Shown here piece by piece: positions 9,053 through 13,121 of a DNA stretch of 64,000 nt. Origin of the DNA: Cellulosimicrobium sp. Marseille-Q4280 (GTDB lineage: Bacteria > Actinomycetota > Actinomycetes > Actinomycetales > Cellulomonadaceae); NCBI RefSeq assembly GCF_943181405.1, contig NZ_CALPBY010000008.1:1-64000 (forward strand), read 5' to 3'. Within the stretch, counting starts at the first letter, position 1; each line of letters starts with the position of its first letter. Below the pieces are notes generated by a model that made no database searches, had not been told where the DNA came from, and saw only the letters and a program-made list of their open reading frames with translations. The translations under genes and the position numbers were made by a program.

Positions 9053-10048
9053 ATGGCGGTCACTGAGGAGATCTCGTCGGGTGTCGCGCGACGCACGGGC
9101 GGACTCGTCCTGCTCGCGGCCGCCGTGACGGTGGTGCTGTGGGCGTCGGCGTTCGTCGCCGTCCGCGCCGCGGGTCACGACTACTCGCCCGGCGCTCTCG
9201 CGCTCGGCCGCCAGCTCGCGGGGTCGGTCGGTCTCACGGCGATCGTGCTCGTCCGGGCCGTCCGCGTGGCGGGCCGCGCACCGGCCGAGGGGACCGGCGG
9301 CGTCGCGCGGGTCGTGACCGCGCTTCCCGCCCTGCCGCGCGGACGCACGCTCGCGGGCGTCGTCGCCTGGGGTGTCGCCTGGTTCGCGCTCTACAACGTC
9401 GCGCTCAACGGGGCCGAGCAGCATCTCGACGCCGGGACGACGGCGCTCCTCGTCAACGTCGCTCCCGTGCTCGTCGCGGTGCTCGCCGGGCTGCTCCTCG
9501 GGGAGGGGTTCCCGCGCCGGCTGCTCGCCGGGATGTCCGTCGCGTTCGCCGGCGTCGCCGTCATCGCCGTGACCACGTCGACGGGCGACGCCGACGTGCT
9601 CGGGGTCGCGCTCGGCCTCGCCGCCGCGGCGCTCTACGCCGGTTCCGCTACGGCGCAGAAGCGGCTCCTGGCCCGCGTCGACGCCCTCACCATGACCTGG
9701 CTGGGGTGCCTCGCGGGCACCGTCGCGTGCCTGCCGTTCGCCCCCGCGCTGGTGCGCGAGGCGTCGGTCGCGGCAGGGTCGTCCACGCTCGCGGTCGTCT
9801 ACCTCGGGCTCTTCCCGACGGCGGTCGCCTTCACCACGTGGGGCTACGCCCTCTCGCGGACGAGCGCGGGCCGGCTCGCGGCGTCGACGTACCTCGTGCC
9901 GCCGCTCGTCGTGGTCCTGTCGTGGGCGCTGCTCGCCGAGGTCCCCGCGGGACTGACGCTCGCGGGCGGCGTGCTGAGCCTCGCGGGCGTCGCGCTGGCG
10001 ACGCTGCCGCGGCGCAGGGCGCGGGGCGTGGGCGGTGTGCGGCGCTAA
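9053..10048 (+). CDS. EamA (DMT) family membrane transporter
   Basis: A 331-aa protein with ten predicted hydrophobic helices in two repeated EamA domains (about residues 15-150 and 165-320). Family features include VLWASAFVAVRAAG at helix 1, NVAPVLVAVLAGLLLGE near the end of repeat 1, and PTAVAFTTWGYALSRTSAGRLAASTYLVPP in repeat 2. Drug/metabolite transporters of this type export amino acids or small metabolites; the substrate cannot be read from sequence. ATG 9053 gives a normal N-terminus; a GTG at 9014 in frame is possible. It is divergent from the LysR gene, its likely regulator, and its stop overlaps that of the next, convergent gene. Confidence 0.9.
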   Translation: MAVTEEISSGVARRTGGLVLLAAAVTVVLWASAFVAVRAAGHDYSPGALALGRQLAGSVGLTAIVLVRAVRVAGRAPAEGTGGVARVVTALPALPRGRTLAGVVAWGVAWFALYNVALNGAEQHLDAGTTALLVNVAPVLVAVLAGLLLGEGFPRRLLAGMSVAFAGVAVIAVTTSTGDADVLGVALGLAAAALYAGSATAQKRLLARVDALTMTWLGCLAGTVACLPFAPALVREASVAAGSSTLAVVYLGLFPTAVAFTTWGYALSRTSAGRLAASTYLVPPLVVVLSWALLAEVPAGLTLAGGVLSLAGVALATLPRRRARGVGGVRR

Positions 10049-10917
10049 CCCGCGAAGGGCAGCACCGGCAGCCCCCGCACACCCGCGTCGACGCGGAACA
10101 CCGACCCCGCCTCGCGCTCGCGCGGGTCGTCGGCGTCGAGGTCCTGCCGCGACGTCGTGACGAACAGCGCGTCGAGGTCGTCGCCGCCGAACGTGCACGC
10201 GCTCACCTGGCTCGCGGGGAACCGGACCTCCGCGTCGAGCACCCCGGCGGGGGAGTAGCGCCGCACCGCCGACCCGCCCCAGAGCGCGACCCACACGCCG
10301 CCGTCGGCGTCGACGGTCAGCCCGTCGGGCGTCCCGTCCTCGGGATCGACCGCGACGAACGGCCGACGTCGAACCAGCCCGCGGGGGTCCTCGTCCGCCG
10401 GGACGACGTCGAGCACGTCGACGCGCTGCGTCGCCGAGTCCACGTAGTAGGCGAGCGAGCCGTCGGGGGAGAAGCCGAGCCCGTTCGACGTGCGGATCCC
10501 GTCGAGCACGACGCGCGAGCTGCCGTCGGGCTCCACCCGGTACAGCGCACCCGGCCGCTCGCCCCGCGCCATGCCGCCGGCGTAGAACGCCCCGTCGGGC
10601 GCCGCGGCACCCTCGTTGAGCCGGACCGTCGGGTCGTCCCACAGCGTCGCGAGCGGGCGCACGGGGGCGTCGTCGGCGTCGGCGACCGCGACGGATCGTT
10701 CGAGCCCGACGACGAACCCTCCGCCCGCTCGCGGCCGCACCACGGCCGCGTGGTCGCCGACGTGCAGGCGGTCGACGCCGCCGTCGGGCCGCAGCGTCAG
10801 GAGGTCACCCGCGAGCATGTCCACGTACCGCAGCCCGCCCCAGCCGGGCCACCACACCGGACCCTCCGCGTGGTAGGCGACAGGACCGGTGACGTTCTGG
10901 GCTCTCAGCTCGGGCAT
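10045..10917 (-). CDS. SMP-30/gluconolactonase-like six-bladed propeller protein
   Basis: A 290-aa SMP-30/gluconolactonase/LRE-like protein. Markers are AEGPVWW (metal-ligand Glu) near residue 18, VRLNEGAAAPDGAFYAG, RTSNGLGFSPDGSLAYYVDS (Asn ligand) and GTPDGLTVDADGGVWVALWGG (Asp ligand). The family hydrolyses sugar lactones with a single divalent metal, so a sugar-lactone hydrolase is the best guess. No signal peptide is seen, so it should be cytoplasmic. It is monocistronic, convergent with the EamA transporter. Confidence 0.9.
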   Translation of the reverse strand: MPELRAQNVTGPVAYHAEGPVWWPGWGGLRYVDMLAGDLLTLRPDGGVDRLHVGDHAAVVRPRAGGGFVVGLERSVAVADADDAPVRPLATLWDDPTVRLNEGAAAPDGAFYAGGMARGERPGALYRVEPDGSSRVVLDGIRTSNGLGFSPDGSLAYYVDSATQRVDVLDVVPADEDPRGLVRRRPFVAVDPEDGTPDGLTVDADGGVWVALWGGSAVRRYSPAGVLDAEVRFPASQVSACTFGGDDLDALFVTTSRQDLDADDPREREAGSVFRVDAGVRGLPVLPFAG

Positions 10918-11016
10918 GTGCTCGATCTTGCCCGAGGCGCTCAGGCGCCGCTCGTCTCCCAGTGGTCGAGCGTCGCCTCGCAAGCCCGACCCTCCGACGA
11001 GGCGTAGCCTGGGAGC

Positions 11017-11058
11017 ATGTTCACGCGCGACTGGTGGTGGCTGCCTCCGCAGCCGTGA
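11017..11058 (+). CDS. Trp-rich leader peptide of trpS
   Basis: A 13-codon open frame reading MFTRDWWWLPPQP with three consecutive Trp codons (11032-11040) and a TGA at 11056-11058. GGGAG lies just upstream (11011-11015). It starts 176 bp before the trpS ATG and sits before a set of mutually exclusive hairpins. Three Trp codons in 13 upstream of a tryptophanyl-tRNA synthetase are the hallmark of ribosome-mediated attenuation, where uncharged tRNA-Trp stalls the ribosome and prevents the terminator from forming. Translation itself is unproven, and the SD-start spacing is short. Confidence 0.75.
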   Translation: MFTRDWWWLPPQP

Positions 11059-11149
11059 CCTGTCCTGCCCACGTCCCGAGCTGCGCTCCGCAGCCGGGAC
11101 GTCGTCGTGTGCGGCGCCCCCGCGTCCGACCGGCTGGTGCCGGACCAGC
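11032..11149 (+). promoter_or_regulatory. transcription attenuator of trpS (segments 1-4)
   Basis: Segment 1 GGCTGC (11039-11044) overlaps the last Trp codon and pairs with segment 2 GCAGCC (11049-11054). Segment 3 (11071-11085) pairs with segment 4 (11089-11102) as a 14-bp GC-rich hairpin with one bulged A, the likely terminator. CGCAGC of segment 2 can instead pair with GCTGCG (11080-11085) of segment 3, forming an antiterminator when a ribosome stalls on the Trp codons. A further hairpin, GCTGGT/ACCAGC, lies at 11133-11149. No U-run follows, as is common in high-GC actinobacteria. Confidence 0.65.
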
Positions 11150-11192
11150 GGACCTGCGTCGCGCGGCTCCCCTGCACGCAAGGAGAGCTCCG

Positions 11193-12320
11193 ATGACCGA
11201 CACCCTCACCCCCACCGACGTCACGATCCCCGAGAGCGCACCCGCGCCGTCGTCCACCGCGTCCGTCGCGGCGGCGCGCGCCCGCAGCGCGGAGATCGAG
11301 GCGCAGATCGCCACCGATCCCTCGCGCTTCCGCGTCCTCACCGGAGAGCGCCCGACGGGCGCGCTGCACCTGGGCCACTACGTCGCGACCGTCGCGAACC
11401 GCGTCCGTCTCCAGCGCGCCGGCGTCGAGGTGTTCCTCGTCGTCGCGGACTACCAGGTCATCACCGACCGCGACGACGCCGGTGACCTGCGCGGCACGGT
11501 GCGCGAGATCGTACTCGACTACCTGGCTGCGGGGATCGACCCGGAGCGCACGACGATCTTCACGCACTCGTCCGTGCCCGCGCTGAACCAGCTCCTCCTG
11601 CCGTTCCTCAGCCTCGTCACGACGGCCGAGATCGAGCGCAACCCCACGGTCAAGGCGGAGGCGCTCGCGGCGGCCGCTCGGCAGGGCCGGCCCATGAGCG
11701 GGCTGCTCTTCACCTACCCTGTGCACCAGGCCGCGGACATCCTCTTCTGCCACGGCAACCTCGTCCCGGGCGGGCAGGACCAGCTCCCGCACGTCGAGAT
11801 CACGCGCACGGTCGCGCGGCGCTTCAACCAGCGCTACGCCGCGACGAGCCCGTACTTCCCCGAGCCCGACGTGCTGCTCGCGCCCGCGCCGACGATCCTA
11901 GGCACCGACGGGCGCAAGATGAGCAAGTCCGCGGGCAACGCGCTCGAGCTGCGCGACGACGAGGACACGACCGCGCGCTTCGTGCGCCGCGCGAGGACGG
12001 ACTCGGAGCGCCACATCACCTACGAGCCGGACCGTCGACCGGAGGTCGCGAACCTGCTCACGCTCGGCGCGTTCGCCGCCGGGACGACGCCCGAGGCGCT
12101 CGCGGACGAGATCGGCGCCGGGGGAGCGGGCCGCCTCAAGGAGGTGGTGACCGACGCGCTCGTCGAGCACCTCCGTCCGCTCCGTGCCCGACGTCGCGCG
12201 CTCGCCGCGGGCGACGGACCCGACCCCCTCGACGTGCTCGCCCGGGGGAACGCGCGGGCGAACGAGATCGCCGACCGCACGCTCGCCGACGTCCGCGAGC
12301 TGATGGGCATGCGGTACTGA
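11193..12320 (+). CDS. trpS: tryptophanyl-tRNA synthetase
   Basis: A 375-aa class I aminoacyl-tRNA synthetase that charges tRNA-Trp. The HIGH-type motif is GERPTGALHLGHY at about residues 51-63 and the KMSKS motif is GRKMSKSAGN at about 245. A flexible N-terminal extension of about 40 residues precedes the Rossmann core. ATG 11193 follows AAGGAG by 7 bp, so the start is firm. The gene is monocistronic and appears controlled by the Trp leader/attenuator upstream, so expression should rise when charged tRNA-Trp is scarce. Whether this is the only TrpRS of the organism cannot be told from the window. Confidence 0.96.
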   Translation: MTDTLTPTDVTIPESAPAPSSTASVAAARARSAEIEAQIATDPSRFRVLTGERPTGALHLGHYVATVANRVRLQRAGVEVFLVVADYQVITDRDDAGDLRGTVREIVLDYLAAGIDPERTTIFTHSSVPALNQLLLPFLSLVTTAEIERNPTVKAEALAAAARQGRPMSGLLFTYPVHQAADILFCHGNLVPGGQDQLPHVEITRTVARRFNQRYAATSPYFPEPDVLLAPAPTILGTDGRKMSKSAGNALELRDDEDTTARFVRRARTDSERHITYEPDRRPEVANLLTLGAFAAGTTPEALADEIGAGGAGRLKEVVTDALVEHLRPLRARRRALAAGDGPDPLDVLARGNARANEIADRTLADVRELMGMRY

Positions 12321-12354: not shown

Positions 12355-12384
12355 CTGCCGTCAGCTGCCGTCGGCTGCCGTCAG
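12355..12384. repeat. three-copy 10-bp tandem repeat
   Basis: CTGCCGTCAG, CTGCCGTCGG and CTGCCGTCAG run head to tail and overlap the stop codon of the GPP34 gene. Probably replication slippage. Confidence 0.8.
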
Positions 12385-13121
12385 CGACCGCTCGTCGCGA
12401 CGCTGACCGCGACGGCTGCGCTGGAGGCGGCGATCGCCGCCGCGGTGCGCGTGACCGCGGTGGCGACGGCCTCGGGACCCCACTGGCCCTGCTCGATCTC
12501 CTTGGCCCGCGTCGCCGTCCGCGTCGTCCAGGGCAGCGGCGGTCGCAGGGACGGGAGGGCGCCGCTGGCGGAGAGCAGCCCGATCACCGCGGCCGTGCGC
12601 GGGTCGGGGGCCTCGCCGTCCTCGAGCACGGCGCGGATCCGCTCGCGCAACCGTGCCTCGTGCTCCTGGTCGGCTGCCGGCCACCGCGTCGTGCGGAACA
12701 GGCCGAGCACGCGCGACTCCTGCCGCTCGACCAGCCCGCGTCGTGCGAGCCGGTCGATCACCTCGCGCCACAGGTCGGCGCCGAGCGCGACGAGCAGCGG
12801 CTGAACGCGCTGCGTCTTCTCCGCGACGGTGTCGTAGGCCTGCTGCAGCAAGGGGTCGGGCAGCGGCCCTGACCCCGCGGGGGTGACGCGCGGGCCGTTG
12901 AGCACCCCGGTGTCGTCGGTCTCCACGCGGCCGAGCAGCGCGAGCTCGGTGAGCACGGCGCCCCCGAGGGTGTAGTACAGGGTCCCGGCGCCCTGGATGG
13001 ACGCGCCGTCGTCATCCAGCAGGAGGAGCATGAGGTCGTCGACCACGAGCAGGTCGTCATGGCGACCGGGGCCGTCCGCCGGGGCGTCCGCGGGGCCGGG
13101 TCCAGGGGTCAGGTCGCTCAT
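12381..13121 (-). CDS. GPP34 (GOLPH3/Vps74-like) family protein
   Basis: A 246-aa protein of the GPP34 family, the bacterial relatives of Golgi phosphoprotein 3. Visible markers are DDLLVVDDLMLLLLDDDGAS (residues about 22-41), GAVLTELALLGRV, the helical EVIDRLARRGLVERQESRVLGLFRTTRWPAAD and a C-terminal helical stretch. In eukaryotes the family binds phosphatidylinositol 4-phosphate; the role in actinobacteria is not established. It is the last gene of a three-gene minus-strand group with an ABC-2 exporter; a 43-bp gap separates it from the permease. That hints at a membrane-associated role alongside the exporter. Confidence 0.88.
   Translation of the reverse strand: MSDLTPGPGPADAPADGPGRHDDLLVVDDLMLLLLDDDGASIQGAGTLYYTLGGAVLTELALLGRVETDDTGVLNGPRVTPAGSGPLPDPLLQQAYDTVAEKTQRVQPLLVALGADLWREVIDRLARRGLVERQESRVLGLFRTTRWPAADQEHEARLRERIRAVLEDGEAPDPRTAAVIGLLSASGALPSLRPPLPWTTRTATRAKEIEQGQWGPEAVATAVTRTAAAIAASSAAVAVSVATSGR

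Follow-up and report, generated by a model that had tools for sequence, protein, structure and literature searches.

We found that the gene for a second tryptophanyl-tRNA synthetase (TrpRS) in Cellulosimicrobium sp. Marseille-Q4280 is preceded by a short open reading frame (ORF) with a run of tryptophan codons and by RNA segments that can pair in mutually exclusive ways. We conclude, with a probability of roughly 0.85, that this leader and attenuator control transcription into the gene, trpS2, in response to charged tRNA-Trp, and that trpS2 encodes a backup TrpRS. An initial annotation of the window, by which we mean the whole 64,000-nt stretch of DNA analyzed, had described a 13-codon frame with three successive Trp codons in front of trpS. 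The observation is confirmed here: the frame (MFTRDWWWLPPQP) is present with its three TGG codons side by side, and it lies upstream of trpS as described (Table 1). The annotation's reading of the region as an attenuator is supported by our analysis, and charged tRNA-Trp would be the signal to which it responds.

The Trp codons of the leader are unusual for this DNA. The triple TGG (TGGTGGTGG) occurs only once in the 64-kb window on both strands, within the leader ORF. Among 100 dinucleotide-shuffled windows, there were two that contained an ORF of at most 30 codons starting with ATG or GTG and carrying three consecutive TGG codons. The region from position 11011 to 11192 also folded more stably than its shuffled versions (z = -2.63), with only 3 of 200 shuffles being equally stable.

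Table 1. Features at and around trpS2, in window positions.
Feature	Position	Strand	Details
SMP-30/gluconolactonase-like gene	10048-10917	-	Divergent neighbor
-10 box TAGCCT	11005-11010	+	TANNNT in register before leader ATG
Leader peptide ORF MFTRDWWWLPPQP	11017-11058	+	13 codons; ATG at 11017, three Trp codons (TGG) at 11032-11040, TGA at 11056-11058
Segment 1 GUGGCUGC	11037-11044	+	Pairs with segment 2; RNAalifold consensus; 98.5% of helix cells paired
Segment 2 CGCAGCCGUGAC	11048-11059	+	Contains leader stop codon; partner is segment 1 or 3
Segment 3 ACGUCCCGAGCUGCG	11071-11085	+	A bulge at 11079; partner is segment 2 (antiterminator) or 4
Segment 4 CGCAGCCGGGACGU	11089-11102	+	With segment 3, presumed terminator hairpin
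Hairpin at Shine-Dalgarno sequence	11165-11185	+	GGCTCC (11165-11170) opposite AAGGAG (11180-11185); local hairpin able to mask the Shine-Dalgarno sequence
trpS2, auxiliary tryptophanyl-tRNA synthetase	11193-12320	+	ATG at 11193; TIGR00233 trpS; second TrpRS of genome
GPP34-domain gene	12384-13121	-	Convergent neighbor

The product of trpS2 scored 223.7 bits against TIGR00233 (cut-off, 176.75). The 4.86-Mb genome has three PF00579 genes: trpS2, a primary TrpRS gene on contig C7 (the window lies on C8) whose product is 36 to 37% identical to that of trpS2, and a third gene, which we take to encode TyrRS because it gave no tblastn match to the trpS2-encoded TrpRS. The 450 nt upstream of the primary trpS (L002) contained no short ORF with at least two Trp codons. 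Nor was a short ORF with WW or WxW found at the trpE locus of this genome, where 3.4 kb was examined and the operon promoter may be farther off. Since its two neighbors are divergent and convergent, trpS2 is probably transcribed alone.

Among solved proteins in the PDB, the best sequence relatives of the trpS2 product were 1yi8 and 2a4m, the second of which is named "Tryptophanyl-tRNA synthetase II"; both chains are presumably from Deinococcus. Of the solved TrpRS proteins, the product is thus closest to TrpRS II, as judged from sequence matches. According to an excerpt of a review (PMC9437257), radiation damage induces TrpRS II of Deinococcus, which has nitric oxide synthase as its partner. 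We rejected such a partnership for trpS2 because the genome of the window gave no match to nitric oxide synthase (PF02898). A role as a backup synthetase, made when charging of tRNA-Trp fails, would fit better. We also considered whether the leader belongs to the T-box or another curated RNA family. This was rejected, as an Rfam search over the window returned no match at gathering scores, and the two matches between positions 10950 and 11260 were far below them (E = 1.3 and 3).

To characterize the distribution of the leader, we searched 150 genomes of the Cellulomonas/Cellulosimicrobium/Promicromonospora family. After setting aside matches that were not clearly better than that of the primary TrpRS, we identified 66 copies of trpS2 in 65 genomes (L004 to L069), with 60 to 100% identity. 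The initial annotation had named conservation of the Trp codons and stems in close relatives as a check on its reading, and the relatives bore it out, with a Trp-codon leader upstream of 63 of the 66 copies. The upstream scan returned a WW or WRW leader for 61 copies (34 WWW, 22 WWR, 4 WW, and 1 WRW). In one other copy (L064), the leader (MTTTTTWRPLHP) has a single Trp codon, and a hairpin with a T-rich tail can be seen by eye downstream of it, while L068 (genome G037; reread as L129) has an intact WWW leader in front of a trpS2 gene that is frameshifted and split between two frames. The three copies lacking a leader ORF (L062, L063, and L069) come from one genus (g10). By eye, each has TANNNT 6 to 7 nt before the GTG start of trpS, as if trpS2 itself were leaderless, and in L069 the gene is in two pieces. 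The alignment used below includes 60 of the 66 loci. It leaves out L062, L063, and L069, which have no leader; L064, with its one Trp codon; L068, where the frameshift misplaced the gene start; and L044, where a leader is present but no trpS start was assigned. Counts based on 61 leaders (folding, -10 box, and U-rich tails) refer to the aligned loci plus L044.

The leader is not only common upstream of trpS2 but also largely restricted to it. A pattern describing the Trp codons and helix 1:2 (TGGTGGYGGCTGC-N3-9-GCAGCC) had 56 matches in 55 of the 150 family genomes, compared with 19 matches in 17 genomes for a reversed control pattern. When the 56 matches were compared by eye with the trpS2 loci, 55 fell immediately before a trpS2 copy and 1 before a trpS2 remnant in G145. 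We also extended the pattern to include segment 3 and applied it to a wider collection of genome contigs, which may omit the window's own genome. The extended pattern had 43 matches, 42 of which were before trpS2 (40 by same-strand tblastn; L147 and L167 by eye, where the stretch ends at a gene start showing a Shine-Dalgarno sequence and ATG). The remaining match, on an Aurantimonas contig, has no in-frame start within 45 nt upstream. Outside the family, Nakamurella silvestris (L160) carries the leader MSTPTPIRNWWRLPLAAV in front of a trpS2 with 60% identity. In two Sanguibacter-type genomes, G075 (L055) and G096 (L054), the leader precedes what is apparently the sole TrpRS, each genome having one further PF00579 gene and a single match in the TrpRS search. 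The apparently sole TrpRS of G010 (L063) is likewise of the trpS2 type and has no leader.

The position of the promoter is also conserved. When spacings from 5 to 8 nt were tried, TANNNT was found exactly 6 nt (33 leaders) or 7 nt (28 leaders) before the leader start in all 61 leaders, against a background of 0.0015 per position over 5,490 positions. This register suggests that the leader transcript is probably leaderless, starting at or beside the A of the leader ATG. A scan for a simple sigma-70 consensus between positions 10900 and 11260 returned no promoter.

Downstream of the start, the RNA is organized into four segments. The initial annotation had claimed that pairing of 1:2 and 3:4 is mutually exclusive with pairing of 2:3. 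This holds, with segment limits refined here, since the alternative helices share bases. The 3:4 hairpin has an energy of -24.1 kcal/mol in the window and a mean of -21.5 kcal/mol across the 61 leaders. On its own, RNAalifold recovered only helix 1:2 and the top of 3:4 from the 60 aligned leaders. In these two elements 99.0% of cells were paired (slid controls, 10 to 69%), and 97.9% were paired for helix 2:3 (slid controls, 18 to 40%). The outer stem of 3:4 is out of register in the alignment, so we counted its paired cases in the individual fold of each sequence. Among 49 distinct hairpins, this stem varies with pairing kept, and positions -8, -7, and -4 each hold at least three pair types. 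Covariation within the family was weak and not above slid controls. There were three double-change cells in 1:2 plus the top of 3:4 (versus three at slide +3) and two in 2:3 (versus two at slides +2 and +3), and the covariation score of 2:3 (0.023) was exceeded at slide +1 (0.038). With so little variation in the core, covariation is not very informative. Some leaders stop early (L057, L060, L061, and L065 to L067), which moves the stop codon into the loop of helix 1:2. The helix is nevertheless kept, which argues for selection on the RNA and not on the end of the peptide.

We then folded the leaders with a ribosome in place, assuming that it covers the RNA up to 12 nt past the first base of the A-site codon. 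For RNA ending after segment 3, a ribosome at Trp codon 1 or 2 left the segment 3 core paired with upstream sequence in all 61 leaders. The mean energy of this RNA was -15.4 kcal/mol in the stalled state versus -1.5 kcal/mol with the ribosome at the stop codon, and the stalled structures of seven leaders were inspected individually. A stall at the third Trp codon was less effective (mean pairing, 0.58; >0.5 in 34 of 35), in keeping with how often that codon has been lost. These results come with caveats. Upstream pairing of segment 3 was also seen in 72% of trials with shuffled linkers, weakly in 20 of 61 leaders with the ribosome at the stop codon, and in 24 of 61 without any ribosome, while the z-score of the starved-state fold was modest (mean, -1.06; below -1 in 34 of 61). 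Once segment 4 was present, 3:4 formed in all 61 leaders when the ribosome was at the stop codon and in 60 of 61 without a ribosome. Even under a stall, 3:4 was favored over 2:3 at equilibrium in every one of the 61 leaders. We therefore rejected equilibrium as a description of the switch and used the shortened RNA; as in the classical model, switching must be kinetic. In masked folding, the classical behavior was seen in 61 of 61 leaders for each state: a stall favored 2:3 in RNA ending after segment 3, and arrival at the stop codon favored 3:4 once segment 4 was included.

Based on these patterns, we propose that the leader ATG, or a base next to it, is where transcription begins and that a ribosome starts on the leaderless end. 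When charged tRNA-Trp is scarce, either because Trp is short or because the primary TrpRS is failing, the ribosome would stall on the first Trp codons and cover segment 1. Segments 2 and 3 would then pair before segment 4 is made, allowing the polymerase to continue into trpS2. When charged tRNA-Trp is plentiful, the ribosome would reach the stop codon inside segment 2 and cover that segment, so that 3:4 would form and stop transcription. If the leader were not translated, 1:2 and 3:4 would form together, leaving the gene off.

Similar leaders, written in different letters, also occur outside the family. We sampled 296 genomes of the phylum, requesting matches only at E values up to 1e-60, and 28 genomes had one, our own included. 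Among 21 other loci with 53 to 60% identity (L070 to L090), an adjacent-Trp leader was found only in the Streptomyces-like L070; the other 20, which belong to other classes, had at most short single-Trp ORFs without the box in register. In the genus of L070, taken as Streptomyces, 23 of 121 genomes contain the trpS2 type. When the annotation's check was extended to these relatives, the same logic was found in 20 of the 23, with leaders such as MTSVPCRNWWRSS; 18 have two adjacent Trp codons and 2 have one. The 20 leaders had energies of -9.0 to -14.9 kcal/mol when stalled and -1.0 to -7.0 kcal/mol with the ribosome at the stop codon. With segment 4, the range was -16.7 to -23.7 kcal/mol, and a 3:4 hairpin of different sequence was present (structures inspected individually for 4 of the 20). 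The Streptomyces trpS2-type loci without a Trp leader (L111, L114, and L116) form one small branch of the tree. The same switch logic is seen in the leaders (MTTHALVQQWWLA and MHTRALVQQWWPA) of two further Streptomyces loci, L120 and L125, which belong to a separate supported TrpRS clade and are 36 to 38% identical to the TrpRS of the window. Other loci on that side of the tree (L121 to L124 and L126) had no such leader. The presence of leaders in both the trpS2 type and the L120/L125 clade suggests that Trp-codon attenuation may act on two TrpRS lineages, in a tree of 41 chosen loci where the long branches joining clades may be misplaced.

Despite the conservation of the helices, it is possible that transcription ends by other means than an intrinsic terminator at 3:4. 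The initial annotation had ascribed the full logic of ribosome-mediated attenuation to this synthetase gene; the mutually exclusive helices are conserved as that logic demands, but the canonical U-run is absent after 3:4. The tail in the window (UCGUCGUGUG) has at best 3 U in 8, so that a classical attenuator defined by the U-run of its intrinsic terminator was rejected for the window, and a terminator scan of the region found none. Across the 61 leaders, the best count of U in 8 after 3:4 was 1 in 8 leaders, 2 in 13, 3 in 22, 4 in 7, 5 in 6, and 6 in 5. If Rho were responsible, sensing by Trp codons would be unchanged, but release of the ribosome at the leader stop codon would expose the untranslated RNA to Rho and 3:4 would only pause the polymerase. 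The scarcity of U, with no more than 3 in 8 in 43 of 61 leaders, favors this alternative, and mycobacterial polymerase reportedly needs a U-tract (title of Czyz 2014). Rho does not require a hairpin, however, and 3:4 is strongly kept. At least 5 U in 8 were found in 11 of 61 leaders, with the most U-rich tails mostly in Promicromonospora-type loci (UUUUCUGUG), and several Streptomyces homologs also have U-rich tails (e.g., CUUUUCG). We consider Rho a serious rival though an unlikely one, and favor termination at 3:4 as the probable outcome when tRNA-Trp is charged.

Control could instead be translational, with the leader ribosome governing access to the Shine-Dalgarno sequence of trpS2. Local pairing of that sequence exceeded upstream-shuffled controls in 54 of 60 loci, and we expected that the antiterminator state would free it. 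This was rejected. Pairing was coupled to the choice between 2:3 and 3:4 in 0 of 60 loci (shift of >0.3), with nearly equal means in the two states (0.729 and 0.731, respectively), making translational attenuation improbable. It is more improbable still that the product of the ORF is a functional small protein, with hairpins that are by-products of GC-rich sequence. An LxxQP ending is widespread in the family, as might be expected of a functional peptide, but the ends vary where the helix is kept (MFRTTSWWLR, MNFNRLGWWLR, and MTSTCTRVAWWRLL), and the Streptomyces leaders share the Trp codons and architecture but not the ending. GC-rich DNA folds easily and shuffled linkers pair too, yet a chance ORF next to chance hairpins is hard to credit when the leader accompanies nearly all family copies of trpS2, the sequence patterns are tied to that gene, and the -10 box is in register throughout.

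There are precedents for attenuation of synthetase genes, and attenuation of trpS is already in print for Streptomyces. Vecchione and Sello (J. Bacteriol., 2010) reportedly described ribosome-mediated transcriptional attenuation of an auxiliary antibiotic-resistant TrpRS gene, which we take to be trpRS1 of S. coelicolor. That system, compared by its title, involves an auxiliary TrpRS gene as ours does. The classical attenuator of Trp biosynthesis in E. coli shares tandem Trp codons and the 1:2, 2:3, and 3:4 logic with the window, but it controls Trp synthesis and has a U-run, whereas the leader described here precedes trpS2 and lacks a canonical one. In mycobacteria, polycysteine ORFs are said to act as leaderless attenuators (title of Canestrari 2020). 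Like our leader, which is predicted to be leaderless, these are short ORFs with a run of the sensed codon, but they act on cysteine operons, unlike the leader of trpS2. In an excerpt of a paper citing that work (PMC13236596), the mycobacterial case is called translation attenuation.

Further parallels come from Streptomyces. Excerpts of a comparative study (PMC1262725) report trp biosynthesis attenuators of Corynebacterium and Streptomyces as well as a candidate attenuator before trpS2 of S. avermitilis. The latter, a prediction for one species of that study, likewise precedes a second trpS, while the trp-operon attenuators described there have poly-U tracts that the window lacks. In S. lividans TK24, trpL2 (MMTRTCTQLWRAA) precedes trpS (PMC8079986, in part). 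As excerpted, trpL2 resembles our leader in having 13 residues and two hairpins with no uridine-enriched stretch downstream, but it differs in its peptide and has one Trp codon instead of three. Its leaderless start was identified by RNA-seq, whereas ours is predicted from the -10 box. Part of another study (PMC7157823) places S. coelicolor SCO3334 under a WhiB7/WblC-type activator. Among the titles listed for trpS attenuation in one literature collection, we found none on the family of the window.

More broadly, the leader could represent a trpS2-specific cassette of high-GC Actinomycetota that combines a leaderless peptide, an antiterminator without a canonical U-run, and a separate hairpin masking the Shine-Dalgarno sequence. 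Such a cassette would bring in the backup synthetase automatically whenever the primary TrpRS fails, would serve two TrpRS lineages, and would control the apparently sole TrpRS in G075 and G096. We offer this wider view tentatively, as one that may well prove wrong. If it is true, an essential TrpRS in those two genomes would be under feedback by its own product. Our findings add the Cellulomonas/Cellulosimicrobium/Promicromonospora family, and a TrpRS II-like synthetase, to the trpS attenuation described in Streptomyces, and they suggest how actinobacteria may use spare synthetases only when charging of tRNA-Trp has failed. The leader is well bounded and conserved, making it a testbed for leaderless initiation and for termination without a U-run.

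Two loci merit separate mention. The record QAPD01000033.1 (L134), titled Sphaerisporangium cinnabarinum ATCC 31213, has a Cellulosimicrobium-type leader, and the name looks wrong. At L128 (G145:C1:566700-568600), a leader near position 391 and a 3:4 hairpin are followed by a trpS2 remnant without its N-terminal part; here, the attenuator has been kept while the gene behind it has degraded.
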